Shown: positions 14,633-59,057 of the stretch, piece by piece
Layout of the letters: each line of letters opens with the position of its first letter
Position numbering within the stretch: position 1 is the first letter of the stretch
NCBI RefSeq assembly: GCF_014696315.1
Contig: NZ_JACJPX010000003.1
Coordinates: forward strand, 124,001-188,000
Length of the DNA: 64,000 bases
Source: Calothrix membranacea FACHB-236
Lineage (GTDB): Bacteria > Cyanobacteriota > Cyanobacteriia > Cyanobacteriales > Nostocaceae
Direction of reading: 5' to 3'
Position numbers and translations under genes: made by a program
Notes under the pieces: generated by a model
Told to the model about the DNA's origin: nothing
Database searches by the model: none
Seen by the model: only the letters and a program-made list of their open reading frames with translations

Positions 14633-14836
14633 TTAGGAAAGCCTTTTTGCTTCTACAGTCTGCGGTAATTGTAAAGGTTCTGATAAATTTGGAATTGCTA
14701 ATTCCCAACCGTTTGCTAAGGTAAAAATTTTACCTTCCGAACCCTCTGTTTGGCTGACCACTTCTTCCTCAAGGTCTTTTTTAGCAACATAGACTAATAA
14801 CTGTCCAGCAGAATTCTGACGCAGCATTACTTTCAT
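14633..14836 (-). CDS. nifT: NifT/FixU protein
   Basis: Small protein of 67 residues of the NifT/FixU family, found in most nif clusters. Its precise role in nitrogenase maturation is not settled. The start MKVMLRQNSAGQLLVYVAKKDLEE and the segment LANGWELAIP match the family, and the length is typical (65-75). Its ATG overlaps the stop of nifZ by four bases (ATGA), implying translational coupling in a nifV-nifZ-nifT unit. The unit is read away from nifB. Confidence 0.9.
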   Translation of the reverse strand: MKVMLRQNSAGQLLVYVAKKDLEEEVVSQTEGSEGKIFTLANGWELAIPNLSEPLQLPQTVEAKRLS

Positions 14837-15126
14837 TTAGCTTCCTCAACAATTTCTAATTCTTTTTTACGACAACCGACTATTAAACCTTTTTCAATAA
14901 AATGCACTGCATAAATATAGGAATTTTGCAAAAATGTTCCTATACTGACGATGTATCCAATTTCTCCTTTTTTGGCTAGAGTTGCCCCAATTTCTTGACC
15001 GGGATATGTGCCATCATTACGGATCAGTTTGCGAGTTCTGACTTTTGAGCCAATTTCAAAAGCTGGTGGTAAATCAAGTTCTAATTCGTCTAATTGCATA
15101 GGATTTATATCAATTTCAAAACTCAT
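14833..15126 (-). CDS. nifZ: NifZ nitrogenase maturation protein
   Basis: NifZ is needed for formation of the second P-cluster in the MoFe protein. This copy has 97 residues. The family core is visible: FEIGSKVRTRKLIRNDGTYPG followed by GEIGYIVSIGTFLQNSYIYAVHF and the ending GLIVGCRKKELE. It lies 17 bases after nifV and overlaps nifT by four bases. Some bacterial NifZ proteins carry a longer C-terminal tail that is absent here, as in other cyanobacteria. Confidence 0.92.
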   Translation of the reverse strand: MSFEIDINPMQLDELELDLPPAFEIGSKVRTRKLIRNDGTYPGQEIGATLAKKGEIGYIVSIGTFLQNSYIYAVHFIEKGLIVGCRKKELEIVEEAK

Positions 15127-15143
15127 CCAAAATCAAAATTGAA

Positions 15144-16259
15144 TCACCTTTCAGATGGAACTAAACTCAATAGTTCTTGCATATTTAGACTGCGTTTATT
15201 TTCTACAGATTGTTGCCGTACTGCATCTAAAATGGATTGGGTTTCATCTGGGTTTAAGTTGATCCCTTGTTGCCGTAGTAAGTTAGCTACCAAATGCCGA
15301 CCCGAATGTTTACCCACAACTAAGCGTCTTTCCCAGCCTACTTCTTCTGGTGCAAAAGGTTCGTAAGTCACAGGGTTTTGCAAAACGCCATGAGCGTGAA
15401 TTCCAGATTCATGAGCAAAGGTATTTTCGCCAACGATCGCTTTCCAAGGAGGTACATGACAACCGGAGGCTGTGGCTACTATTCGCGAAAGTTCCAATAA
15501 CCGAGTGGTATCAATTCCTAAATCGATTTCTTGAAGGCGTTTGAGCGCCATCACCACTTCTTCTAAGGCGGCGTTACCAGCTCTTTCCCCCAAGCCGTTA
15601 ACGGTTGTATTCACCGATAAAGCGCCAGCTTGCAACCCAGCTAAAGCATTTGCGGTTGCTAAACCGAAATCATTATGGGTGTGCATTTCCACTGGGATTG
15701 ATAAATACATCACCAATTGATGAACTCTGGTGTATGTAGTAAAGGAGTCGAGAATGCCGATAGTGTCGCAAAAGCGAAACCTGGACGCACCCCATTCTTG
15801 AGCATAAAGCGCTACATCTAAGAGGAATTTTTCATCGGCTCTAGAAGAATCTTCACCACCTACAGCTACCCAAAGACCGCGATCGCGTGCAAAGCTAATT
15901 GCATCTTTGAGTTTTTTTAACATCAAGCGCCACTGTCCGTGAAATTTGGCAGCAATTTGAATTTCGGAAACAGGAACGGATATATGTACGCGCTGCAACC
16001 CACAGGCGATGGAAGCCTGAATATCTGAGATATTCGCGCGATTCCAGCCTAAAAGTTGAGCTGTTAAACCCAAGCGAGAAATTGCGGCGATCGCTTGGGT
16101 TTCCACTTCACCCATTGCGGGAATACCTACTTCTAATTCACCTACACCAATAGCGTCCAATAATTTAGCGATCGCTACTTTTTCCTCAACATTAAAGGCT
16201 ACACCCGCCGCTTGTTCTCCATCCCTTAGTGTAGTATCGTTAACAATGATCGCATTCAT
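15144..16259 (-). CDS. nifV: Homocitrate synthase NifV
   Basis: NifV condenses acetyl-CoA with 2-oxoglutarate to give homocitrate, the organic ligand of FeMo-co. The protein is 371 residues from the ATG at 16259 ([20 protein letters not shown]). A TTG three codons upstream is less likely, and an AAGAGG ribosome site lies 11 bases before the ATG. The DTTLRDGEQ motif binds metal and 2-oxoacid. The HTHND segment ([17 protein letters not shown]) and the [15 protein letters not shown] motif are the DRE-TIM family signatures. Absence of the leucine-regulated C-terminal domain separates it from isopropylmalate synthase. It is the first recognisable nif gene of the leftward unit. Confidence 0.95.
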
Positions 16260-16346
16260 AATGCCCAACGCCTCTTGTAGGATTTTAGCTTTTCCCCTGG
16301 GGATTAATTGCTATTAGCAATAGTGGTATGATGAATTACTCAAAAT

Positions 16347-16439
16347 TTATTTCTTGGCTCGTAGCAATAAATAGCCAAAGTATGTATTCACAATTGCAGG
16401 AATAACTATCAAACTGATACTGGCAAGTAATACTGTCAT
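16347..16439 (-). CDS. Thirty-residue single-span membrane peptide next to nifV
   Basis: A very short ORF: ATG at 16439, TAA at 16347, 30 residues. The N-terminus MTVLLASISLIVIPAIVN runs on to YFGYLLLRAKK, giving one hydrophobic helix with a basic cytoplasmic tail. A good ribosome-binding site (GAGGAA, about nine bases upstream) precedes the ATG. It sits between the 86-residue ORF and nifV on the same strand, with gaps of about 40 and 90 bases, so it is probably in their operon. Size and topology recall the tiny subunits of respiratory or photosynthetic complexes, but I recognise no family. Confidence 0.55.
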   Translation of the reverse strand: MTVLLASISLIVIPAIVNTYFGYLLLRAKK

Positions 16440-16480
16440 GATGCTAGCTTCCTCATGAGTAAATTTTCATCAGCGAGTAA

Positions 16481-16741
16481 TTAATAATTCACTTCTGCTG
16501 TACAGGATTTTTCTAGCCAATCGAGTAACTCTTGCCGATCAGCGAAAGAATTGTGGGCATGACTGCGAACAAAAAGAGCTGCGATCGCATGATTAAAACC
16601 CACCATCACAGAATGATCTGCTGGCGACCGACAAGGAATCATTAAATCTTGTAAGTGCTGATAAATTCGCCAGCGATCGCTAACAGGTATCTCGGAAATT
16701 TGCGTATTAAGATTACAAGTAGGAGGCTTAAACATAAGCAA
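16481..16741 (-). CDS. Conserved-looking small protein upstream of nifV
   Basis: Protein of 86 residues that I cannot assign with certainty. It reads MLMFKPPTCNLNTQISEIPVS and then has a helical region (DRWRIYQHLQDLMIPC) and a His/Ala-rich part (AIAALFVRSHAHNSF) ending DRQELLDWLEKSC. It resembles the small Asr-type hypothetical proteins found in cyanobacterial nif regions, but I cannot name a family. It is the first gene of the leftward unit leading to nifVZT, and its promoter must lie in the large gap to nifB. A nitrogen-fixation role is inferred from position only. Confidence 0.6.
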   Translation of the reverse strand: MLMFKPPTCNLNTQISEIPVSDRWRIYQHLQDLMIPCRSPADHSVMVGFNHAIAALFVRSHAHNSFADRQELLDWLEKSCTAEVNY

Positions 16742-16918: not shown

Positions 16919-17090
16919 CTTTTGACTTCTAAGGCAGCGGTACTAGTCTATTTCTATCCCGCCCAGTTTATAAGAACTAGTTATACCAGGTGACTCTAAC
17001 CATACCAGTGCATTCATTAGCCTGTACTCAATTACTATCAATCCTGATTTCATCAGAATTTACAAGCAGAAAAAATTTTTTTTCCCCCAA

Positions 17091-17113
17091 GGTACTAGTA
17101 TTTATCAAAGTCA
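17091..17113 (-). promoter_or_regulatory. Composite element pointing toward the nifV unit
   Basis: Read on the minus strand it contains TGACTTTG and then ATAAATACTAGTACC. This matches the right half of the elements before nifB (AATACTAGTACC) and weakly the left half. It lies about 350 bases before the 86-residue ORF, in the same orientation as that operon. A weaker half-site, GGTACTAGT, is at 16939-16947. Confidence 0.5.
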
Positions 17114-17578
17114 ATAGTCAGTACTTATTTATTTCAAAATGAAAGTCCCATAGGGATTTGACCGAATTTTGATTTTATTTGCTGGCATATAAATTTGTAC
17201 TCATCTTCATCTTAGATGAAATGTATTAAACAATAATTTTCTGTATCTGAAGTTACGATTTCCTATGATTTGTTTTCCTGAAGTAGTTTCATGGGGTAAA
17301 AGCCTCAACGGGAGTGACCCCGCACATAATTAGCTCAACTTTGTGATGCTCTGCATAAACAAAAAATCCCGCAAGTATGAAAACAGTGGTTCTGTATCTC
17401 ATGACACGATTTTTGGTTAAGTTATTTTAAAATTAAATTTTTCCATGAGAAAAGTGTTATTTTGGATACGGAATTGAATTTCGCTTAACGACTGGGGCAG
17501 TGTTTGGTTAACTACTCCAGTTATTTATCTCTCAAATACCCAAATAACTAGTGTTTTGGGTAGCGATAGAGCAATATC

Positions 17579-17600
17579 TGAGTACAGATAAAACTCAACC
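17579..17600 (+). promoter_or_regulatory. Candidate CnfR element, copy 1 upstream of nifB
   Basis: TGAGTACAG followed by ATAAAACTCAACC. The first eight bases equal the TGAGTACA core I recall as required in nifB promoters of Anabaena variabilis. Copies 2 and 3 follow within 120 bases in the same orientation. Confidence 0.55.
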
Positions 17601-17650
17601 AAAAAACACCTCAAATTAGACTCAAACTCTTGTTAGTGCTAGGTTCAAGG

Positions 17651-17672
17651 CGAGTACAGAAATACTTGAACC
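17651..17672 (+). promoter_or_regulatory. Candidate CnfR element, copy 2 upstream of nifB
   Basis: CGAGTACAG followed by AAATACTTGAACC. It aligns base for base over most of its length with the minus-strand element at 56518-56539 between coxBAC and cnfR. Confidence 0.6.
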
Positions 17673-17683
17673 CCTTCATCATA

Positions 17684-17717
17684 AATACTCGTACCTAGTG
17701 CAGAAAATACTAGTACC
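17684..17717 (+). promoter_or_regulatory. Candidate CnfR element, copy 3 with a tandem half-site
   Basis: Two tandem right halves, AATACTCGTACC at 17684 and AATACTAGTACC at 17706, are spaced 22 bases apart (two helical turns). The second is preceded by TAGTGCAGAA, a degenerate left half. Confidence 0.6.
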
Positions 17718-17777
17718 TATCCCTAAAAACTTTTTTTAAAATTTTTGCAAAGCTTGGCAAGTATCAGTTTCACTTTT

Positions 17778-17787
17778 TGAGTACAAG
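17778..17787 (+). promoter_or_regulatory. TGAGTACAAG element proximal to nifB
   Basis: TGAGTACAAG lies about 340 bases before the nifB ATG. It is the closest match in the window to the TGAGTACAAAA sequence I recall from nifB promoter work in Anabaena variabilis. If the transcript starts near 17840, it would be in an activator position. Confidence 0.5.
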
Positions 17788-18124
17788 CTTAATAAGTTTA
17801 ATAAATTATAAAAAACACTCACAACTTCCGCTTGTGAAGCTGCTGCTATAAATAAAACATGTAGCGCACAACACCCAAGGCACTAACAAAAATGTATCGC
17901 TAAATACTGAATGCACTAACCAAGACCCGACAGTTATAACTATCAAAAGTTGTAGCGAGAAGTAATTGAAGATGCGATATTAGCTGTTCCACATTTTATT
18001 TACATATTTAATGGTGTGGATTTTTGACCGTTGACAGTTAACCGTTAATAGTCAACTAACTTGGCTGAGATTGAAAGCATCTTCCATAATGCCAGCCCCC
18101 AACTCTAATACGTAGCGAAATTCA

Positions 18125-19576
18125 ATGACACCACCTACAGGGCTTTTAACTTCTGCCACTACGGAGATAACAACTCAAGCCAAATCCGGCGGTTGTGGTT
18201 GCAGTAGCAAAACCGATACCACAACAAGTTTAGATGAAAAAATCCAAGCAAGGATTGCAAAACATCCTTGCTATAGCGAAGAAGCGCATCATCACTATGC
18301 GAGGATGCACGTTGCAGTAGCACCAGCTTGTAATATTCAATGCAACTATTGCAACCGCAAATATGACTGTGCAAACGAAAGCCGTCCTGGTGTTGTCAGC
18401 GAACTGCTCACACCAGAAGAAGCAGCGCATAAAGTTTTAGTGATTGCAGGCAAAATTCCCCAAATGACCGTTTTGGGAATTGCAGGCCCTGGAGATCCCC
18501 TAGCGAACCCAGAAAAAACTTTCCGCACCTTCGAGTTAATTGCCGAGAAAGCACCAGATATCAAGCTTTGTCTGTCAACTAACGGATTGATGCTTCCCGA
18601 TTACGTGGATCGAATTAAACAACTCAACATCGACCACGTCACCATAACTATTAATATGGTAGACCCAGAAATCGGAGCGAAGATTTATCCTTGGGTTCAC
18701 TACAAACGCAAGCGCTATAGAGGGATTGAAGGTGTCCGCATTCTGCATGAAAAGCAGATGGAAGGATTACAAGCCTTACAAGAAGCAGACATCCTTTGCA
18801 AAGTTAACTCGGTCATGATTCCGGGAATTAACGACGAACATTTGGTAGAAGTCAACAAAGTCATTCGTTCTAAGGGCGCATTCCTCCACAATATTATGCC
18901 CCTGATTTCTGCCCCAGAACATGGTACTCACTTTGGTTTAACAGGTCAGCGCGGCCCCACATCTAAAGAATTGAAAGCAGTACAAGATAGCTGTTCTGGC
19001 AATATGAAAATGATGCGCCACTGTCGCCAGTGTCGCGCCGATGCTGTGGGATTGTTAGGTGAAGACCGTAGTCAAGAATTCACCAAAGATAAATTCATGG
19101 AAATGCCTCCAGAATATAATCTAGAGCAACGCCAAGAAGTTCATGCAGGTATTGAGAAATCGCAAAAAGAAATTCAAGCCGTCAAAGAAAAGGTAGTAGA
19201 GACATTACATACAACATCTCTACAAGACAGACCCAAAATCTTAGTTGCAGTCGCCACTAAAGGCGGTGGTTTAGTTAACCAGCACTTCGGTCATGCTAAA
19301 GAGTTTATGATTTACGAAGTCGATGGCAGCAGTGCTAAATTTGTCGGTCATCGCAAAATTGACCATTACTGTCAAAGTGGATATGGCGAAGAAGCCACTT
19401 TAGACAACATTATTAATACTATTTCCGATTGCAAAGCGGTTCTGGTGTCCAAAATAGGTCACTGTCCTCAAGAACAATTGCTCAAAGCTGGCTTACAGAC
19501 CGTTGAAGCTTACGACGTAATTGAAAAAGTTGCTTTGGAATTTTACGAGCAATGGATTTTAGGGACTGGGGAATAG
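18125..19576 (+). CDS. nifB: FeMo-co biosynthesis radical SAM protein NifB
   Basis: NifB fuses two 4Fe-4S clusters with a carbide and a sulfide to make NifB-co, the FeMo-co precursor. It has 483 residues, as in other cyanobacteria. An N-terminal Gly/Cys stretch (SGGCGCSS) precedes the radical SAM motif [14 protein letters not shown] (CX3CX2C) near residues 62-76. The SAM-binding GPGDPLANP follows, and [16 protein letters not shown] supplies further cluster ligands. The C-terminal third, from about residue 370, is a NifX/NafY-type domain ([23 protein letters not shown]). It is first in the rightward nif operon. Its last codons (ILGTGE) run into a GGGACTGGGG tandem repeat, so the tail is repeat-derived. 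Confidence 0.97.
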
Positions 19577-48916: not shown

Positions 48917-49669
48917 CTAGATTGCATACGAGAGAGATACTCTATCATTCTCTAGATATTTGTTATAGCATCTGCCTTGTTCGCAAATTTGACGCTCAAT
49001 ACCATTAAAGAATTGCAAACGCGCATCCATTGCTTCTAAAATGGCTTGTTTAATCTGCATATCAATATTCTCATCATTGGTATTGAGATGAGGTTCTATG
49101 ACTGCGGCTAGTTTTGCTGCATGGCTATCATCGACATCAATATGAACTTCAAAAAATATCAATGATTCCTTGGGTAATGGCGTTGAACCTGAGATTCCCT
49201 TATATAATTGTGTGTACAACGAGCTAACAATCCCTTCGGAAGCATAACAGACTGCACCCAAAGCAGCTAAATAGCCATATTGAAATGGAATTCTCAAGTA
49301 AGTTTCAATTAAAGCACGAGTTTCTGGTGCAGTTGGTAATGCTGCTAGAGTGTTGTCATCAATACCCAGGGTACGAGTAAACCGCCGAAATAATTCTGGA
49401 TGGGATTGACTTAAATCTCCCTGTCCCATTTCATCCAATAAGTTATCTAAGATTACTAACTGAGCCGCTTCATCTGAGCAGCATGACAAAATTTTGGCAA
49501 GAATCCGGTTAAATTCCTTGGAGAATTTATACATCTGCACAGCTAGCACTTGTACATCTGGAAGCGATAAATTTCCAGTACGACAGCGGGTAAGAAATTG
49601 ATGGTTCCATAGGGGATGGTTAACTGTTATTTCCCGCAAAGAATTTGTTTCTAAAGATGACACAAGCAT
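48917..49669 (-). CDS. Heme-oxygenase-like diiron protein (TenA/PqqC-like fold)
   Basis: All-helical protein of 250 residues related to the iron-containing redox enzymes of the heme-oxygenase-like diiron oxidase (HDO) superfamily. The likely metal ligands are a helix with LDNLLDEMGQGD (Glu), AVCYASEGIVSSLY (Glu) and the diagnostic FFEVHIDVDDSHAAKL (His, Asp, His). Members such as UndA, SznF and BesC carry out oxidative cleavage or N-oxygenation. The start lies four bases after the methyltransferase stop, so the two are coupled. The substrate is unknown. Confidence 0.72.
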   Translation of the reverse strand: MLVSSLETNSLREITVNHPLWNHQFLTRCRTGNLSLPDVQVLAVQMYKFSKEFNRILAKILSCCSDEAAQLVILDNLLDEMGQGDLSQSHPELFRRFTRTLGIDDNTLAALPTAPETRALIETYLRIPFQYGYLAALGAVCYASEGIVSSLYTQLYKGISGSTPLPKESLIFFEVHIDVDDSHAAKLAAVIEPHLNTNDENIDMQIKQAILEAMDARLQFFNGIERQICEQGRCYNKYLENDRVSLSYAI

Positions 49670-49673
49670 ATTC

Positions 49674-50444
49674 TTACCTTGATACTTGAATTGCTAAATG
49701 AAGTGGTAAATCGAGCAAGGGACTAAAAAATGATTCATCTAATGCAACATGTTCTGGAGTCACACGTAATTCTTTGAAGATTGGCATTGTATTGAAATTA
49801 GCCATCTGCAAACAATTAAAGTAATCTTCCAGAGTTTTGTGAATTAGTTGCACATTTAGCCAAGAACCATCTCGTTTCCAAATACGTCCAGGAAATAGCT
49901 GATCTCGCTTGCTGAAGTAGCCTTTACCTTCTACTTGGAAATAAAACGGATATGCGGCTTCACGCATATAGGGAAAGGATGGATGGGGAATGCTAAATAC
50001 AAATCTGCCACCAGGACGAAGTATTCTGGCAACTTCTGTCATACATTCCTGGGTTTGAGCAATTGTTAAATAGTTAAATAGAAAAACAGCAACTACTAAA
50101 TCTATTTCACCATCACCAAGTTGTGGGAGATTCGTAGCACATCCTACTTCATATTTAATCCCTAGCGGATTTTCTAACTCTTGCAGATTTGCGGCTGTAA
50201 TCATGGCTTGGGAACTATCTATTCCATATACTTGTGCAGCTCCACGTCGGCGTAATTCTCGCGTGCAATAACCTTCACCACAACCTAAATCAATGACTTG
50301 TAGTTGATTAATCGGCTCACACATTTCTAATACAAAAGGACGAGCTGTAAAGTCTGAAAGCGAAAGCGGTTGTCCTCTTACCCAATCTGAAGCAGTGTGA
50401 TTATATAGATTTATCGTAGAGTCTTTATTGTTTAAAATTGACAT
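49674..50444 (-). CDS. Class I SAM-dependent methyltransferase
   Basis: Small-molecule methyltransferase of 256 residues. Motif I is VIDLGCGEGYCTRELRRRGA, motif II/acidic loop VYGIDSSQAMI, post-motif GEIDLVVAVFLFNYLTIAQ and motif III ILRPGGRFVFSIPHPSFPY. The C-terminal half resembles methyltransferases acting on small metabolites. It is directly upstream of the diiron protein (four-base gap) and 330 bases downstream of the DHDPS-family gene on the same strand. Confidence 0.83.
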   Translation of the reverse strand: MSILNNKDSTINLYNHTASDWVRGQPLSLSDFTARPFVLEMCEPINQLQVIDLGCGEGYCTRELRRRGAAQVYGIDSSQAMITAANLQELENPLGIKYEVGCATNLPQLGDGEIDLVVAVFLFNYLTIAQTQECMTEVARILRPGGRFVFSIPHPSFPYMREAAYPFYFQVEGKGYFSKRDQLFPGRIWKRDGSWLNVQLIHKTLEDYFNCLQMANFNTMPIFKELRVTPEHVALDESFFSPLLDLPLHLAIQVSR

Positions 50445-50773
50445 TGTAATTATTTTCGGTATTTTGCTTTAAGTTGATGAGTTATGTGCAATATTGCCAA
50501 AGCCAAAAATCAAACTACATCAGTAAATATTGAGGATTTTTTGGCATTAAAACTCTTATAATGCTTGATTAAATTGCTGTGATAAAGGCTTATAAATTAC
50601 TTGGATGATTGATGCATACAATCCCCATCAGCATGGGTTATAGATTGAGAATAAATTTATCTATGAATGCTAATATCCCAATTTTTATGTAATTAATAAA
50701 TATCAAATACATAAAAAATTGTTGCTGAATGAATTTAGTTCTAACATTCAATAGTTTAAGTTATTGAGAGTAT
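50445..50773. other. AT-rich spacer inside the three-gene metabolic group
   Basis: About 330 bases without a gene. It is AT-rich and could hold a promoter for the methyltransferase and diiron genes. No hairpin is obvious. Confidence 0.4.
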
Positions 50774-51661
50774 TTACACTGATTTTCTAGCAATTAAGTT
50801 AACATCCATCCTATTTTCTGATAATTCATCGATACTGCAATGACGAACTTTTGCTGAAGAGATGATGTCTCGATTACGTAAAATTTCTTTTCTTACAGCT
50901 AATCCACCTTGATATTCATATCTAAAAAAAGGTAAGCAACGCTGATACTCTTGAGCAGCGGCTAATAATTCACCTCTATGAAAATAATCCATTATTGTTA
51001 GTAAATGCTCAGGATAAGCATAACCTGTCATTAACCCGTGGCTACCTGCTTGGAGTTCTGGTAGACAATTTAAACCACCCAATGCGCCAAAAATAGCCAA
51101 GCGATCGCCTATGCTATTACGTAATAGCAAAATTTTCTCGTGTGTTGGTTCTTCCTCTAATTTAATCGCCTGTACCTGCTCAACTTCCTCCACCAAACTT
51201 GCAATAAAATCGACAGATAATTTTCCCGTTAAGGGAGGATAATCTAGAATCACTAAAGGCATTTGAGTTGCAATGCCAATTTCCTGGTAGTGTTGTTTCA
51301 CTTGTTGACTATCAGAAAAGCTAGGAGGTACAACTAACAACCCCTTAGCGCCTAATGCAGCCATTTGTAACCCAAATTTTGCTGCTGCATCTGCTTTCCC
51401 GCTTACTCCCACCACAACAGGGACACGATTTTTAACTTGCTGGAAGACAATTTGTGCGACACGCAACCGTTCTTGGAGTATTAATTTAGCTTCTTCTCCC
51501 AAAACAGTTAATATCGCTAGTCCATGTACTTTTTTGTGAATATAAAACTCGACTAAACGCTCTAAACTAGCTTCATCTAATTCACCTTTCACTTTAAATG
51601 GTGTGACTAAAACTGCATAAAGGTTGGGAGATAAATAATTCTGTGTAAAAAAATTGTCCAT
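50774..51661 (-). CDS. Dihydrodipicolinate synthase-family aldolase/lyase
   Basis: TIM-barrel Schiff-base aldolase of 295 residues. N-terminal VLVTPFKVKGELDEASLERL, then VPVVVGVSGKADAAAKFGL. The catalytic tyrosine lies in LDYPPLTGKLSV and the Schiff-base lysine in VQAIKLEEEPTHEK. The usual GTTGE motif is altered to LTVLGEEAKL (true DapA: GTTGESPTL), so it is probably not the lysine-pathway enzyme. Possible substrates are other 2-oxo acids plus an aldehyde. It heads a leftward group with a methyltransferase and a diiron protein. Confidence 0.78.
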   Translation of the reverse strand: MDNFFTQNYLSPNLYAVLVTPFKVKGELDEASLERLVEFYIHKKVHGLAILTVLGEEAKLILQERLRVAQIVFQQVKNRVPVVVGVSGKADAAAKFGLQMAALGAKGLLVVPPSFSDSQQVKQHYQEIGIATQMPLVILDYPPLTGKLSVDFIASLVEEVEQVQAIKLEEEPTHEKILLLRNSIGDRLAIFGALGGLNCLPELQAGSHGLMTGYAYPEHLLTIMDYFHRGELLAAAQEYQRCLPFFRYEYQGGLAVRKEILRNRDIISSAKVRHCSIDELSENRMDVNLIARKSV

Positions 51662-52152: not shown

Positions 52153-52764
52153 CTAAAATACGCTCAGGATATACAATAGCGTAAACAGAATGATCCAGAT
52201 GATATCTACAAAGTGCCAGTAGATTTCTGCCATTTCAATGCCAGTATGTTTCGTAGCAGAGTAATGACCGGCACGGCGCGATCGCCACAGTACACCCAGT
52301 ATTAACAGCAACCCTACAAATACGTGTAAACCGTGGAACCCTGTCATCAAATAAAAGCAGTTAGAAAACACGTTGGTAGTTAACCCATATCCTAAAGTTA
52401 GATACTCATATACCTGACCTCCAAGGAAAATAGCCCCCATCAACGCTGTGATGCCATACCATAGGCGCATCCCAGCAACATTGTTTTTCTTAATCGCTGT
52501 ATCACCTAAGTGGATCACAAAGCTACTAGAAACTAGGATGATGGTGTTAATTGTTGGTACAAGCAATTCTACTTCTGTACCTTCTGGTGGCCAAACTGCC
52601 GCACCACCACGCAAAACCAGGTAAGTGGCAAAAAAACCGCCAAACATCAAAGACTCAGAAAACAAAAACGTCAGCAGCCCAAACACCCGCAAGTCTTGAT
52701 GTTCTTCATGGGAAGCGGCTGAACTTAACGCTATTTCTGGGGCGTTCAAAGTTGAATCCTGCAT
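52153..52764 (-). CDS. coxC: Cytochrome c oxidase subunit III
   Basis: Subunit III of the aa3-type terminal oxidase, 203 residues from the ATG at 52764 (MQDSTLNAPEIALSS); a TTG three codons earlier is less likely. Five membrane helices fit the short bacterial form. Markers are FLFSESLMFGGFFATYLVLRGG, FYLMTGFHGLHVFVGLLLILG and IYWHFVDIIWIILFTLLYI. It is third of the coxB-coxA-coxC unit. The gap to coxA contains dispersed repeats. Confidence 0.93.
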   Translation of the reverse strand: MQDSTLNAPEIALSSAASHEEHQDLRVFGLLTFLFSESLMFGGFFATYLVLRGGAAVWPPEGTEVELLVPTINTIILVSSSFVIHLGDTAIKKNNVAGMRLWYGITALMGAIFLGGQVYEYLTLGYGLTTNVFSNCFYLMTGFHGLHVFVGLLLILGVLWRSRRAGHYSATKHTGIEMAEIYWHFVDIIWIILFTLLYILSVF

Positions 52765-52819
52765 AAATTCCAATTTCCAAATTGAAGGAGAAATAATTGG
52801 CTTGAATTTCAGCCCTCAT

Positions 52820-52920
52820 CTTTTCTCTGTGTCCTCTGCGGTTAAAAATCATATAAAACCACAGAGGCACAGAGAACGCAGAGTTCACGTAGGATGCGTT
52901 AGCGATCGCGTAACGCATCC
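52820..52920. repeat. Dispersed hairpins between coxA and coxC
   Basis: CTCTGCGGTTAAA with AACCACAGAGGCACAGAG (like 31440-31520) is followed by GGATGCGTTA and TAACGCATCC around GCGATCGC (like 35367). The second hairpin ends eight bases from the coxA stop codon. Confidence 0.8.
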
Positions 52921-52927
52921 ACTGGCG

Positions 52928-54586
52928 TTAAACCGAAGCAGCGGTTTGCGCTGTTGGTTTTCCTTCATCGCTACGCCCATAATCGTAGGGGCCGTGAGTC
53001 ACAACTGGTAGTACTTCCCAGTTTTCAATCGCTGGGGGTGAAGTGGTTGTCCATTCTAAAGTCAGCGCTTCCCAAGGGTTATCTGATGCTTTGGGGCCAT
53101 TGATCCAACTCCAAATGGCGTTGAGGAAGAAGGGAATTACAGATATGCCCAAGACAATTGCGCCAATGGTACAAATATGATTAATTCCTGCAAACTGAGG
53201 GTCATACATGGCGACACGGCGCGGCATTCCTTGCAACCCGAGTTGGTGCATGGGTAAGAAAGTGAGGTGAGTACCAACAAAAGTTAGGGCAAAATGTACT
53301 CTTCCCCAAGTTTCATTCATCATTCTGCCTGTCATCTTGGGGAACCAATGGTAAATTCCCGCATAGATACCAAATACAGAACCGCCAAATAAAACGTAGT
53401 GGAAGTGACCTACTACATAATATGTATCGTGAACGTGGATATCAAAAGGCGCAGTACCCAAGGTTACGCCGCCTAATCCGCCAACTACAAACATTGACAG
53501 CAAGCCGATCGCAAATAGCATGGCACTGGTAAAGCGGATTTTACCGCCCCAAAGTGTTGCTACCCAACCAAAAATTTTCACGCCAGTGGGAACAGCAACA
53601 ATCAGGGTGGAAATAGTGAAGAACATCCGCATCCAAGGGGGTGTACCACTGGTAAACATGTGGTGTACCCAGACAAATAAACCAATGATGCAGATTGCCA
53701 AGCTAGAATAAGCGATCGCTTTATAGCCAAATATCGGTTTACGGGCGTGAACGGGAATCACCTCCGACATAATGCCGAAGATGGGCAAAATCATTAAATA
53801 TACTGCGGGGTGGGAATAAAACCAAAATAAATGCTGATAAAGCACCACGTTTCCGCCAGCATCCGGCTTAAAGAAAGAAGTGCCAAAGTTGATATCAAAT
53901 AATAACAGCACTAATCCAGCTGCTAGCACTGGAGTAGACAGCAGGGCTAAAACTGAAGTTGCTAAAATTGCCCAGCAGAATAACGGCATTTGCGTCCATT
54001 GCATACTGGGGACTTTCATTTTCAAGATGGTGACGACAAAATTTAACGCCCCCAAAATTGAGGAAGTTCCCACCAACACGATCGCTAAAATCCACATTGA
54101 CTGGGCAGTGTTGGCTGTAATTAAACTCAGTGGTGGGTAAGCAGTCCAGCCACTTTGGGAACCACCAAAGAAGAAGCTACCCAAAAGTAAGGCCCCAGCC
54201 GGCGGATTCAACCAAAAGGCGATCGCATTTAATTTGGGAAACGCCATATCTCGCGCCCCCACCATCAAGGGGATGAGGAAGTTACCAAATCCCCCAATCG
54301 CCGCCGGCACAATCCACATAAAAATCATCAATGTGCCGTGATTGGTCATGAAGGCGTTATACAGGTTGGGATCGAGAAAATCCGCATCTGGTGTATTTAA
54401 TTCGATGCGGATCGCCATCGCCATTAATCCGCCAATTAAGTAAAACACAAAGGCGGTTACCAGATATTGAATGCCAATGACTTTGTGATCGATATTAAAA
54501 GTGAAATAGTCGTACCATTTCCACTTTTGGGGTAGTTCGTGGTGGGTAACGACTGCTGTAGTTTTGGGAGTTTCTAATTGTGTCAT
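52928..54586 (-). CDS. coxA: Cytochrome c oxidase subunit I, A2 type
   Basis: Catalytic subunit of the terminal oxidase, 552 residues and twelve membrane helices. Low-spin haem ligand region FMTNHGTLMIFMWIVPA. CuB and active-site region FWFYSHPAVYLMILPIFG. HHMFTSGTP holds the CuB histidine pair. DTYYVVGHFHYVL holds the haem a3 and a ligands. The helix VI motif is YSHPAVY rather than GHPEVY, which is the YS form of A2-type oxidases that lack the D-channel glutamate. It lies between coxB and coxC. With cnfR and nif close by, a role in removing oxygen during nitrogen fixation is likely. Confidence 0.95.
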   Translation of the reverse strand: MTQLETPKTTAVVTHHELPQKWKWYDYFTFNIDHKVIGIQYLVTAFVFYLIGGLMAMAIRIELNTPDADFLDPNLYNAFMTNHGTLMIFMWIVPAAIGGFGNFLIPLMVGARDMAFPKLNAIAFWLNPPAGALLLGSFFFGGSQSGWTAYPPLSLITANTAQSMWILAIVLVGTSSILGALNFVVTILKMKVPSMQWTQMPLFCWAILATSVLALLSTPVLAAGLVLLLFDINFGTSFFKPDAGGNVVLYQHLFWFYSHPAVYLMILPIFGIMSEVIPVHARKPIFGYKAIAYSSLAICIIGLFVWVHHMFTSGTPPWMRMFFTISTLIVAVPTGVKIFGWVATLWGGKIRFTSAMLFAIGLLSMFVVGGLGGVTLGTAPFDIHVHDTYYVVGHFHYVLFGGSVFGIYAGIYHWFPKMTGRMMNETWGRVHFALTFVGTHLTFLPMHQLGLQGMPRRVAMYDPQFAGINHICTIGAIVLGISVIPFFLNAIWSWINGPKASDNPWEALTLEWTTTSPPAIENWEVLPVVTHGPYDYGRSDEGKPTAQTAASV

Positions 54587-54680
54587 ACCAATTTTGGATT
54601 TTGGATTTAAGATTTTGGATTGAAAATCTTGAATAAAATCAAGACTAGCTATCCGAAGTTGGTATTATCTGGAAAAACGT

Positions 54681-55526
54681 TTATGGATTGATGGCAACAG
54701 TTTGATCCATTTCTGGCTGTTGGGCTACGCGATTTTCTGCCAACCAGCGATCATAATCTTCTGGGGAGTGGACAACTACAGAAGTACGCATACTACCGTG
54801 ATAGCCACCACACAGTTCAGCGCAAACTATGGGATAGGTTCCTGTTTTGGTGGCGGTGAACCTTAACTGTGTAGGTTGACCGGGAATTGCATCTTGCTTC
54901 AACCGAAACTGCGGCACCCAAAATGAGTGAATTACATCATTTGCAGAGATGTTCAGCAATACATCTTGACCGATGGGAACGTGCAGTTCGCCAGTATTCA
55001 CATCGCTATCGGGATAGTTAAACAGCCAAGCATATTGCATTCCAGTGACGTTGACCACTAAAGATGGTGGCTTCCCTTCGGTTGCAGGTGTCGAACCAAT
55101 CCCAATGGGGTTTGATTTGGATTCTGCCATCATTGACTCGTGGGTCATACCGTGATGGCCAATCTCATCCATCCCGCCCATTTCGGTGTAAACATCTACG
55201 CTGTAAACCCCCAATCCAATCACAATGATTCCGGGGATGATCGTCCACAAAATTTCTAGGGGAAAGCTACCTTCAATTGGCAAACCATCGCCCGTCTCTC
55301 CACGCCGCCGACGAAATTTAATTACAGAAAACAGGATGGCCCCTTGTACTACTAAAAATAAAGCAGTCCCAATGGCTACCATCACATTAAAGAAATTATC
55401 TACTAAAGGCGCTTGTGCAGAAGCTTGAACTGGCAGAAGATGATTATTTTGCCCTACCCACAAGCTAATTAGCGTAATTAAGATACCTGCAATTAAAGTT
55501 ATGATCCCAAGGGGAATTTGTTTCAT
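54681..55526 (-). CDS. coxB: Cytochrome c oxidase subunit II
   Basis: Subunit II, which takes electrons from cytochrome c or plastocyanin, 281 residues from the ATG at 55526 (MKQIPLGIITLIAGILITLI) with an AGAGGAA ribosome site. It has an N-terminal signal/TM helix, a second TM (NVMVAIGTALFLVVQGAILFS) and a cupredoxin domain. CuA ligands are in CAELCGGYHGSM (two Cys, His, Met) plus the histidine of DVIHSFWVPQF. A His/Met-rich insert (MGGMDEIGHHGMTHESMMAE) precedes the cupredoxin domain and could bind copper. The start overlaps the stop of the upstream small gene (ATGA). Confidence 0.94.
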   Translation of the reverse strand: MKQIPLGIITLIAGILITLISLWVGQNNHLLPVQASAQAPLVDNFFNVMVAIGTALFLVVQGAILFSVIKFRRRRGETGDGLPIEGSFPLEILWTIIPGIIVIGLGVYSVDVYTEMGGMDEIGHHGMTHESMMAESKSNPIGIGSTPATEGKPPSLVVNVTGMQYAWLFNYPDSDVNTGELHVPIGQDVLLNISANDVIHSFWVPQFRLKQDAIPGQPTQLRFTATKTGTYPIVCAELCGGYHGSMRTSVVVHSPEDYDRWLAENRVAQQPEMDQTVAINP

Positions 55527-55876
55527 AAAATAATTTCCTCTGGATAAGTATTTTGCTGCCACATTTTTTCCAACATTTTGACTTTTCTTTGCAGCACAGC
55601 AGCACGATAAGCAACATAGCTCTTATGCAAAGTAATTCCTAAACAAAGGCCAATGGGAGCCAAAATTATCACCCATAATAATATAGAAATAGCGGTAGTG
55701 ACACCATGATTAGTGAAGTGTTGAACATCTGAAACAGCATACACTAGGTTTTGTGTAGCCTGAAAATTTAGATGTTCCTGCCAAACTACAATTATTGCCA
55801 CTAAAGCTGGAGAAAGCACTACTAAGCTTAATAAAAATACTGTGAGAATTCTCAAGAGTTTAGATTTCATAAGCAT
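55523..55876 (-). CDS. Small two-helix membrane protein leading the cox operon
   Basis: Protein of 117 residues (115 if it starts at the ATG at 55870). Two hydrophobic segments are visible: ILTVFLLSLVVLSPALVAIIVVW near the N-terminus and ISILLWVIILAPIGLCLGITL. A basic coiled C-terminal tail follows (YVAYRAAVLQRKVKMLEKMW). It is translationally coupled to coxB by an ATGA overlap. I do not recognise a named family; by position it may help oxidase assembly, as small membrane proteins before cox genes often do. Confidence 0.72.
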   Translation of the reverse strand: MLMKSKLLRILTVFLLSLVVLSPALVAIIVVWQEHLNFQATQNLVYAVSDVQHFTNHGVTTAISILLWVIILAPIGLCLGITLHKSYVAYRAAVLQRKVKMLEKMWQQNTYPEEIIL

Positions 55877-56113: not shown

Positions 56114-56470
56114 AAAAAAAGATATTTGGGTTAAATCTACTCAGTTAAGACTATATTTTTCAGAATTTCTTTAGAATTTAGAATTTCTTTAGAGTTTATA
56201 GTTCTTAACTATTGATTATTGAAAGTCTCAACTATAGCAATCTGTGCAGAAGTTACAAATATCTCTTTACTTTATCCTCCTTGTTACTTTTGTCTCCTTG
56301 TCCTGTTCATATATCAAATACAACTGCAATAGGAATTAATGACACTTGCCTGAGTTCTATCTATCAAAAGTGTTATATCAGCTACCTCATCTAGTAACAG
56401 CAATTAATTAGGAATGTACTCAAATGTTAAAAGCCTTGCAGTATAAAGCTTTTTAAATTTATTTATGGTG

Positions 56471-56539
56471 GGGTACTAGTATTTTTATGAGGGTAAGAGT
56501 ATTTACTTACAGGTGGGGGTACTAGTGTTTCTGTACTCA
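56471..56539 (-). promoter_or_regulatory. Cluster of three candidate CnfR elements between coxBAC and cnfR
   Basis: Read on the minus strand: TGAGTACAG plus AAACACTAGTACC at 56518-56539, a weaker AAATACTCTTACC near 56492-56504 and AATACTAGTACC at 56472-56483. The first aligns closely with copy 2 before nifB (17651). All three point toward coxBAC, about 600-660 bases upstream of it. Confidence 0.55.
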
Positions 56540-57461: not shown

Positions 57462-59057
57462 ATGCCCTACGCCATTACTAAGCGCTGTATTCAGTGTGAC
57501 AAATGCCTTCCTCAGTGTCCTAAAGGTGCGATCCATGTTATCGATGGTGACTACTGGATAGACCCTAGTTTGTGTAATAACTGCGAAGGTTATATGACAC
57601 CACAGTGTGTCCTTTCTTGCCCTGTTAACTCTCCAGTGCCTTATCAAGCAAAAAAGGGTAGATGTAAGGTTGATGCTAATCTCATTGCAACTCAGAAGCT
57701 ATTCACCGATGGTAAAGGACATCCTTTTGCCTCAGCCATCGTCATTTGGGAACTATGCAACGTTTTAGCCCAACGCCAATCGCTTCCCTGGCAAGTTGAT
57801 ACGGATGGAGAGCTATATTATCAACGGCAAATTAATGGTGGTAAAGGTGCGATCGCATTCCGAGTGACGGATAATATGAATTCCGAGCTAGAATGCGTAC
57901 TCAAAGGTGCCAAGGCTTTATCTGCGCTCGAAGCATTTGATATTAGATCTGCTTGTATGCACTTGATCTATGCGGCTCATGCCACTAACCTAGATCAGCC
58001 TTGGGAAGAAGAGTTTATCATCAACGACCGCCAAATTGAAGAATATCTAGGACTAGACAAGCGCAAAGACTTGAACAAAACTACCAAGCTAGCGCTGATT
58101 AAAGAACTTGCTCAACAACCCTGTCAACTTATCGCCTCTATTGATTTACCTGCAAAAGGAAAGATTCCAGGGGTATACCTAGAAAAAAGCCGCTTGTGGC
58201 ATTTATTAGATATTCAACACCACTTTCAAGAAGATGATTTAGGATGCAAACATCTAGTTGGGTTGACTTTTACAATTAAAGCAGGTCAATGGGCAGAGTA
58301 TTTTCTCAATCGCCAAGGTTGCAAAGAGCGTACTGCTTTCTATCAATACGGTACCTTACCCAAAGCTTTACTGAATGTAGTCATGAGCATTTGGCAACAG
58401 CATGAAGGCGCAGCGCGGATGATGCTGTGGTTATTATTTAAAACCAAAATAGGTAGAGAACAGCGCATTACTATCCCCACTCTCATGAGAGTTGCTTACG
58501 GCGAGCGAAAATTGAGCCAAGTCTCTGGACACCCGGAGAATCGCCAACGCCTCTTAAGAATATTTGAAAGCGATTTAGAAGTACTTAATTATCATGGACT
58601 CAAACCTATATTCGATCCCGTTACCTACCCATTAGAAATTCAACCTTTGTGGGCAAAGTTAGTTGATATTCCCGAAGACGCAGACGCAGCATTGGACTTC
58701 TGGATAGATGATGGTAGTAACGGTACGCGATTAACCGATGCAGCACCTCGCGGTAAGTGGAATCGACTAATGAATGCCCGCATTTTATATTTTGAAGTTC
58801 CACCAGATTGGAAAAAACAACTTGCCAAGTCTAAAAAGAAGCAGCGAACTACTAACCGCAAAACAAAATTCAAACCACAAATAAATCTTTCTGTTGAATA
58901 TATTCTTGAAGCTAGAAAAAGGTTAGGGTTAAGCCAAAGAGACTTAGCAAGGCTAACAGGTAAAAGCCAAAGTTGGATTCGTGATATTGAAAATGGGCGT
59001 TTTGAAGCTAAGTTAGAAGACCAAATGTTATTACGAAAAGCGCTGGGGATGAATTAG
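57462..59057 (+). CDS. cnfR: CnfR (PatB-type) ferredoxin-HTH activator of nif genes
   Basis: Transcriptional activator of nif genes under low oxygen in cyanobacteria, 531 residues. The N-terminus is a two-cluster ferredoxin: C9, C12, C15 and C19 in CIQCDKCLPQCP, and C38, C41, C49 and C53 in LCNNCEGYMTPQCVLSCP. The middle 400 residues are specific to CnfR/PatB. The C-terminal 50 residues are an XRE-type HTH (LEARKRLGLSQRDLARLTGK, SQSWIRDIENGRFEAKLEDQ). The clusters are thought to be the oxygen sensor. By linkage with a nifEN-fused cluster it corresponds to the CnfR2 type. It is divergent from coxBAC. Confidence 0.93.
   Translation: MPYAITKRCIQCDKCLPQCPKGAIHVIDGDYWIDPSLCNNCEGYMTPQCVLSCPVNSPVPYQAKKGRCKVDANLIATQKLFTDGKGHPFASAIVIWELCNVLAQRQSLPWQVDTDGELYYQRQINGGKGAIAFRVTDNMNSELECVLKGAKALSALEAFDIRSACMHLIYAAHATNLDQPWEEEFIINDRQIEEYLGLDKRKDLNKTTKLALIKELAQQPCQLIASIDLPAKGKIPGVYLEKSRLWHLLDIQHHFQEDDLGCKHLVGLTFTIKAGQWAEYFLNRQGCKERTAFYQYGTLPKALLNVVMSIWQQHEGAARMMLWLLFKTKIGREQRITIPTLMRVAYGERKLSQVSGHPENRQRLLRIFESDLEVLNYHGLKPIFDPVTYPLEIQPLWAKLVDIPEDADAALDFWIDDGSNGTRLTDAAPRGKWNRLMNARILYFEVPPDWKKQLAKSKKKQRTTNRKTKFKPQINLSVEYILEARKRLGLSQRDLARLTGKSQSWIRDIENGRFEAKLEDQMLLRKALGMN

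Follow-up and report, generated by a model that had tools for sequence, protein, structure and literature searches.

Do the nif genes and the oxidase genes of a cyanobacterial nif cluster share a promoter signal, and which regulator would read it? The question is raised by a stretch of 64,000 nucleotides from Calothrix membranacea FACHB-236 (hereafter the window), for which an initial annotation had proposed a two-part motif in front of nifB, the nifV unit and coxBAC, oriented with each operon and linked to CnfR. Our analysis supports a shared, oriented promoter element that is common to nifB, coxBAC and, reduced to its R3, L3 and -10 parts, the nifV unit, and that is, judging from its sequence, probably a CnfR target. 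The genes concerned are:

14833-16741, minus strand: nifV unit, with an Asr1405/Asl0597-family ORF, nifV (15144-16268) and nifZ (14833-15126)
18125-19576, plus strand: nifB of the nif2 type (nifB2; TIGR01290, 673 bits)
52153-55562, minus strand: coxB, coxA and coxC (coxB and coxA above curated cut-offs, coxC below)
55523-55876, minus strand: 117-aa ORF with a hydrophobic N-terminus, the first ORF after the cox array and before coxB
57462-59057, plus strand: cnfR-like gene (531 aa), N-terminal ferredoxin-like, C-terminal XRE helix-turn-helix

The cnfR-like gene is divergent from coxBAC. Its product has ferredoxin-type matches at residues 1-61, below curated cut-offs, and an HTH_3 match at residues 481-529, above cut-off, and so shows the CnfR/PatB layout of two N-terminal 4Fe-4S sites and a C-terminal XRE helix-turn-helix; it is by this domain order, as described in the accessible part of PMC8510180, and not by alignment with a named CnfR or PatB, that it is presumably CnfR. 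Its nearest relatives are found in Nostoc linckia FACHB-104 (98%) and Nostoc carneum (94%). Because the same genome encodes a second nifB (84% identical) and a second CnfR relative (64% identical, beside another cox operon), we refer to the cluster in the window as nif2-type.

Across an order-wide sample of nifB upstream regions, exact TGAGTACA and AYACTNGNACC words recur at repeating distances. They represent two separate elements, L (TGAGTACA, 8 bp) and R (AAATACTNGNACC, 14 bp), for which matrices were trained on 38 order-wide nifB upstreams with L2 as the zero point. The elements follow the order L1-72-L2-9-R1-22-R2-22-R3-62/73-L3, which is followed by a stretch rich in TAAT and then by an extended -10, TGNTATAA; in the trained model, L1 lies mostly at -71 to -74 from L2, R1 at +9 to +11, R2 at +31/32, R3 at +53/54 and L3 at either +115-117 or +126-128. 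The period of R1-R3 is 21-23 bp at most promoters, i.e., about two helical turns. Upstream of nifB2 we find the following members, all on the plus strand:

17579-17586, plus strand: L1, TGAGTACA, 72 bp upstream of L2
17651-17658, plus strand: L2, CGAGTACA
17660-17673, plus strand: R1, AAATACTTGAACCC, 19.4 bits
17683-17696, plus strand: R2, AAATACTCGTACCT, 20.3 bits
17705-17718, plus strand: R3, AAATACTAGTACCT, 19.4 bits
17778-17785, plus strand: L3, TGAGTACA, 73 bp from R3 and followed by a TAATAAGTTTAATAAATT tract
17844-17852, plus strand: predicted extended -10 of nifB2, TGCTATAAA, 66 bp from L3

The region thus carries three TGAGTACA-type sites, with L2 in the form CGAGTACA, together with R1-R3, as in CnfR-activated promoters of the CS or motif type. 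The copies that the initial annotation had placed at 17579, 17651, around 17695, at 17778 and at 56471-56539 are all present there, and at nifB, the nifV unit and coxBAC alike the elements are oriented with the operon that follows. What finds no support is the contiguous two-part motif as a unit: its halves are separate members of the array and the composite is L2 plus R1. The halves adjoin one another only at 17651 and 56539; 17579 is an L alone and the copy near 17695 an R alone, and the supposedly extra copy at 17778 is L3, a regular array member. The composite as a single motif, a 22-bp consensus allowing at most 4 mismatches, was found at 6 of 21 nifB loci, a count that read the wrong side for the minus-strand nifB of L096, L098, L100 and L109-L112, and was dropped in favour of the array model, whose scans read both strands.

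With this model, nifB2 (100.5) and coxBAC (83.8) are the only two sites in the window that score at least 25, and the maxima of the null sets are 27.5 in reversed DNA (1,585,292 bases, 1.59 Mb) and 26.3 across 300 dinucleotide shuffles of the window. Three R3-L3 pairs spaced 62 or 73 bp occur in the window, and none of the 300 shuffles contains any. That short AT-rich words have merely clustered by chance is nevertheless suggested by one count: TGAGTACA with at most one mismatch shows no enrichment across the window (54 observed vs 45.8 expected, with 11 of 100 shuffles reaching 54), for which reason we rejected the L element alone as evidence. Given that the array and the R3-L3 pairs stand far above their nulls, and that a composite core of 20 positions (at most 3 mismatches) is matched 12 times in the genome (8,810,062 bases) vs 4 in a backward control, chance is a practically negligible explanation. 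Within the organism's own genome, fewer than two mismatches to this core occur only in the cox (0) and nifB2 (1) copies.

On the cox side, all members lie on the minus strand:

56532-56539, minus strand: L2, TGAGTACA
56517-56530, minus strand: R1, AAACACTAGTACCC, 17.2 bits
56491-56504, minus strand: R2, AAATACTCTTACCC, 17.4 bits, 35 bp from L2 where 31-32 is usual
56471-56484, minus strand: R3, AAATACTAGTACCC, 21.5 bits
56415-56422, minus strand: L3, TGAGTACA, 62 bp from R3
56372-56380, minus strand: predicted extended -10 of the cox operon, TGATATAAC, 42 bp from L3

L2, L3 and R1-R3 are found, and L1 is absent at its place (best score -12.3); a AGAGTACA word lies at 56645-56638, 106 bp upstream of the cox L2. 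The 117-aa ORF before coxB has no Pfam or NCBIfam match and is 34% identical (E 6e-22) to the alr2522-type protein, the first ORF of an operon to which we return below. Downstream of coxC, at 48917-51661 on the same strand, lie haem-oxygenase/TENA-like, methyltransferase and DHDPS-like ORFs.

Among 16 cox upstream regions scored (spans of 1846-2500 bp, with approximate coxB starts for L156, L157, L159, L160 and L161), four have the array (window 83.8, G082 79.4, G106 85.0 and G154 68.7) and 12 do not (-2.2 to 14.5), so CnfR control of cox would not be general. These 12 include all six loci scored with cox2 beside cnfR1 (-0.2 to 14.5): the own genome's second copy and those of G126, G050, G109, G092 and G073, which belong to the window's family and are presumed heterocystous by kinship. 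Loci of the window type score as follows: L001 86.7, L007 83.8, L005 53.3, L006 45.6, L002 42.0, L003 29.9 and L004 27.5; strong R3 and L3 are kept in all seven of these loci, the last two of which score at or barely above the null maximum and keep only R3 and L3 well. In L008, R3 is present and L3 is weaker (15.8).

The degraded forms in L003 (29.9) and L004 (27.5) might be taken to mean that the cox copy is a functionless relic of promoter duplication. We consider this very improbable, as R3, L3 and a -10 at 41-42 bp are kept in 8 of 8 nif2-type cox promoters (window and L001-L007), and as cox arrays of 68.7-85.0 occur in G082, G106 and G154. It is also rather improbable that the array, which sits in the intergenic region common to coxB and cnfR, acts on cnfR as an autoregulatory element, or on both genes, rather than on coxBAC. 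A weak half-array (30.8) does precede cnfR in G083 (L281/L237), but the orientation of the window's array and its -10 at 56380 are directed to cox, in G106 and G154, whose best CnfR match is on another contig, an array stands before fdx-coxBAC as well, and none is found in the six cox2-beside-cnfR1 loci.

Towards nifV, a smaller set of elements is found:

17090-17103, minus strand: R3-like element, AAATACTAGTACCT
17023-17030, minus strand: L3-like element, TGAGTACA, 73 bp from R3, the same spacing as in nifB2
16980-16988, minus strand: predicted extended -10, TGGTATAAC, 42 bp from L3

Here only R3, L3 and the -10 are retained in canonical spacing; the full-array score of 22.8 is inside the null range, and the three sites of the CS or motif type are not found on this side. 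A further TGAGTACA at 17203-17196 (minus strand) lies outside canonical spacing, and the ACTAGTACC word near 16939, which had been counted with the element, probably falls outside it, being downstream of the predicted -10. The half-array of this window could represent the promoter site that has been missing. As the reduced copies keep R3-L3, this pair looks like the core of the array.

How widely is the array distributed? At least 45 is scored by 35 of the 38 order-wide nifB upstreams, which are the training set itself, and the model finds no array in the other three (L203 28.9, L195 7.2 and L204 4.2). Outside the training upstreams are G064 and G083 (contig ends), G018, G019 and G090 (longer loci) and the window's nifB2; the nifB arrays of G018, G019 and G090 score 101.2, 83.0 and 92.7, respectively. 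In a second set of nifB loci (L093-L112, of which L100 and L110 are also in the training set and L093 is the window), 20 of 20 arrays score at least 79. Pattern searches in 148 genomes returned 24 matches in 18 genomes for tandem R elements (9 in the backward control), 37 matches in 23 genomes for R3-L3 (2 in the control) and matches in 34 genomes for L2-L3 (15 in the control), the last scored only where the locus had been extracted, was fetched later or was covered by another locus. Class-wide, the R3-L3 pattern is found in 36 of 291 genomes, with 1 backward-control match, a count of pattern-bearing genomes and not of regulon members. In the own genome there are three L2-L3 pairs (nifB1, cox and a small-ORF operon), nifB2 being missed because its L2 is CGAGTACA.

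The pattern-search loci that score at least 40 span 28 genomes, all within the 42 of 148 that have NifB, and fall before four classes of genes: nifB; nifP; coxBAC; and a small-membrane-ORF operon resembling alr2522-alr2527. In the nifP class, a serine acetyltransferase gene comes first, with Asr1405-like, nifV and nifZ-like ORFs behind it in several loci; two examples, L239 and L282, give a match to serine O-acetyltransferase, which we take to be the nifP type. In the coxBAC class, either a nif-specific ferredoxin gene or a small membrane ORF precedes coxBAC (L160 and L161 match ferredoxin III, nif-specific). In the fourth class, L012 matches cysteine synthase and nitrogenase-associated protein.

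Two strong arrays, L276:2702 (G080, 80.7) and L275:7155 (G106, 65.2), stand outside all four target classes, and the latter adjoins a transposase-like ORF. Weak R3-L3 half-arrays occur before cnfR and two nif-linked protein types (L281:213 in G083, L278 and L280). Pattern matches inside ORFs (L128, L131/L143) were set aside, as were R3-L3 and L2-L3 loci scoring below 40 (L220, L223, L226, L227, L236, L237, L241, L251, L253, L257, L259, L261 and L272-L274), although L220, L226, L227 and L237 nonetheless have R3-L3 pairs near nif-linked genes.

The distance from L3 to the -10 takes two preferred values. Of 127 distinct arrays, 116 have their best-matching -10 at 66-69 bp from L3, 5 have it at 41-42 bp and 6 elsewhere. 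When the strict word TGNTATAA was scored over 152 distinct R3-L3 pairs, all 58 nifB pairs had it at 66-69 bp, as did 27 of 30 nifP pairs, the other 3 being without the word. Of the 23 pairs that precede the small membrane ORF, 15 have it at 67-68 bp and 8 at 41-42 bp, these 8 being the nif2-type cox promoters of the window and L001-L007. Where the downstream gene is unnamed (33 pairs), 22 have it at 67-68 bp, 4 at 42 bp and 7 lack it; the four at 42 bp (L093-L096, L093 being the window) face away from nifB, on the divergent side. Single pairs precede NifZ (42 bp), an RDWLV-type gene (44), CnfR (70), NifV (68), an asr2523-type gene (67) and FdxB (69), and two TPR-type pairs are without the strict word; NifP, FdxB, RDWLV, TPR2517 and NafArsC are our own labels, with examples matched for NifP, FdxB and NafArsC, and RDWLV and TPR2517 being labels only. 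Both geometries coexist in one cluster: in the window the distance is 66 bp at nifB2 and 42 bp at both cox and the nifV unit, with TGNTATAA at 17844 (plus), 56380 (minus) and 16988 (minus), and a second nif2-type locus (L113) has 66 bp toward nifB and 42 bp on the other side. At the nif2-type nifB (L093-L096) the distance is 66 bp and at the other copy (L109-L112) 67 bp, in each of the same four genomes, a difference that might bear on the choice between CnfR1 and CnfR2.

The fourth target class concerns an operon of small ORFs and a luciferase-like monooxygenase, which the array precedes in the own genome (L208:7957-11070, C79), in L012, L041, L065 and L070 and in others. The operon adjoins a cysteine synthase gene and lies roughly 9-15 kb from cnfR1, in the order cox2, more ORFs, nitrogenase-associated protein, cysteine synthase, array, small ORFs and luciferase-like monooxygenase. 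Of the 72 CnfR loci L009-L080, 26 have a single match scoring at least 38, in every case at most 1403 bases from the left end, on the cysteine synthase side and not adjoining cnfR. This gene order fits the region from patB (all2512) to alr2527 in PCC 7120; the numbers all2521-alr2524 are those we presume to apply, matched to published passages by gene order and product and not by sequence. In the passages available, a cupin is assigned to alr2518 and a nitrogenase-associated protein to alr2520 (PMC2821919), the cluster patB-alr2524, together with coxBAC, is up within 21 h of nitrogen step-down (PMC3141674), asr2523 shares a nitrogen-fixation co-occurrence module with PatB (PMC5862535), tables of a sigma-factor study give negative values for coxB2, asr2523 and alr2524 (PMC4390870), and alr2522-alr2527 are named "unknown proteins, luciferase-alpha subunit" (PMC7065334). 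Going by the array before it, the alr2522-alr2527-type operon is likely a direct CnfR target.

From the observed sequence, spacing, conservation and gene neighbours we infer CnfR binding, activation and start sites, and we put at roughly 0.77 the probability that the elements form an activator array which depends on CnfR and serves the promoter next to it. CnfR made from 57462-59057 would attach to the L and R elements, being presumably active at low oxygen via its Fe-S sites; the period of R1-R3, about two helical turns, fits several CnfR units on one face of the DNA. Bound at the R repeats and L3, it would bring RNA polymerase to the extended -10. The full array would thereby serve nifB2, the near-full array the operon of the small ORF and coxBAC, and the minimal R3-L3 form the nifV unit, such that the oxidase, with its oxygen removal and ATP, and nitrogenase are induced together.

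It is possible, if unlikely, that L and R are instead read by different proteins, CnfR and a second factor such as a vegetative anaerobic factor or NtcA. The two sequences do differ, it has been argued that CnfR2 needs an additional factor when vegetative cells are anaerobic (PMC8510180, in the part available), and GTAN8TAC words of the NtcA kind are present at 17243, 17894, 56493 and 56655. These four are the only exact words in the two intergenic stretches. An NtcA-activated layout would have such a word centred at about -41.5, and relative to the starts that follow from the predicted -10 boxes no word has that position. Against a second reader, the L2-R1 core of nifB2 is GTA-N6-TAC instead of the GTA-N8-TAC of NtcA; two set R3/L3 spacings are kept across target classes; and inducibly expressed CnfR2 switches on nifB2 in a strain mutated in ntcA (accessible part of PMC8510180). 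Besides CnfR acting through the array, other activators are possible for some cluster genes, since the legend of an L. boryana figure marks in yellow genes that keep lower transcripts without cnfR (PMC5943405, as far as available).

The nifB part of the CnfR-dependent array is known in kind, as CnfR elements at nifB have been published as CS1-CS3 and motifs I-IX. In the available passages on A. variabilis, expression of nifB1, nifB2 and nifZT2 requires CnfR (PMC8510180); nifB1 and nifB2 likewise have three conserved upstream sites, CS1-CS3 (Vernon 2017, as cited in PMC8510180; Thiel 2014, PMC4284476), with a TGAGTA-type motif and a further conserved motif (PMC4284476, PMC8510180), and are described as having an extended -10 without a -35 and as depending on CnfR (PMC8510180, PMC4284476). 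For L. boryana, motifs I to IX of the nifB promoter are given for CnfR recognition (Tsujimoto 2016, as cited in the passages seen of PMC5943405), and the divergent nifB and nifP promoters there are CnfR-activated and carry several conserved motifs (PMC5943405). The view that the right half of the two-part motif lies beyond earlier descriptions is probably wrong, given these motifs I-IX (PMC5943405) and the 'another conserved motif' that a legend of the A. variabilis review sets beside the TGAGTATA motif (PMC4284476), both in the parts available. What differs is that the accessible descriptions of CS1-CS3 do not mention 22-bp R repeats, a fixed L3 to -10 distance or targets of the cox or alr2522 type. 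In the L. boryana work, cox genes were fused to a truncated nifB promoter in a Synechocystis construct, and the native cox promoter does not appear in the available passages (PMC5943405). Anabaena PCC 7120 cox2 (alr2514-alr2516, in the patB-alr2524 region) is likewise a nitrogen-fixation oxidase near cnfR/patB (PMC4390870, PMC3141674, in part), but the array is absent upstream in the six cnfR1-type loci scored, which are from genomes other than PCC 7120. In the literature available, which left key primary papers beyond reach, we met no report of CnfR elements at native cox or alr2522-alr2527, nor of two fixed -10 distances.

We somewhat favour a broader reading in which CnfR is a low-oxygen regulator that reaches wider than the nif clusters, with one spacing code, in which L3 and the -10 are set either 66-69 or 41-44 bp apart, giving it direct control of nifB and nifP, of alr2522-alr2527 near cnfR1 in Nostocaceae and, both within nif2-type clusters and in certain further genomes, of the heme-copper oxidase coxBAC; in cnfR1-type lineages, the oxidase would have been removed from CnfR control or never have been under it. 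The spacing code offers a cheap way to find candidate CnfR targets in cyanobacterial genomes. It also bears on the transfer of nif genes into non-fixing hosts, where cox has been tied to the nifB promoter by construction (PMC5943405, in the part available). Nitrogenase in oxygenic phototrophs needs simultaneous removal of oxygen, and the coxBAC array, if the reading given here is true, would mean that the oxidase of vegetative-cell (nif2) systems is turned on directly by the master switch of nif.
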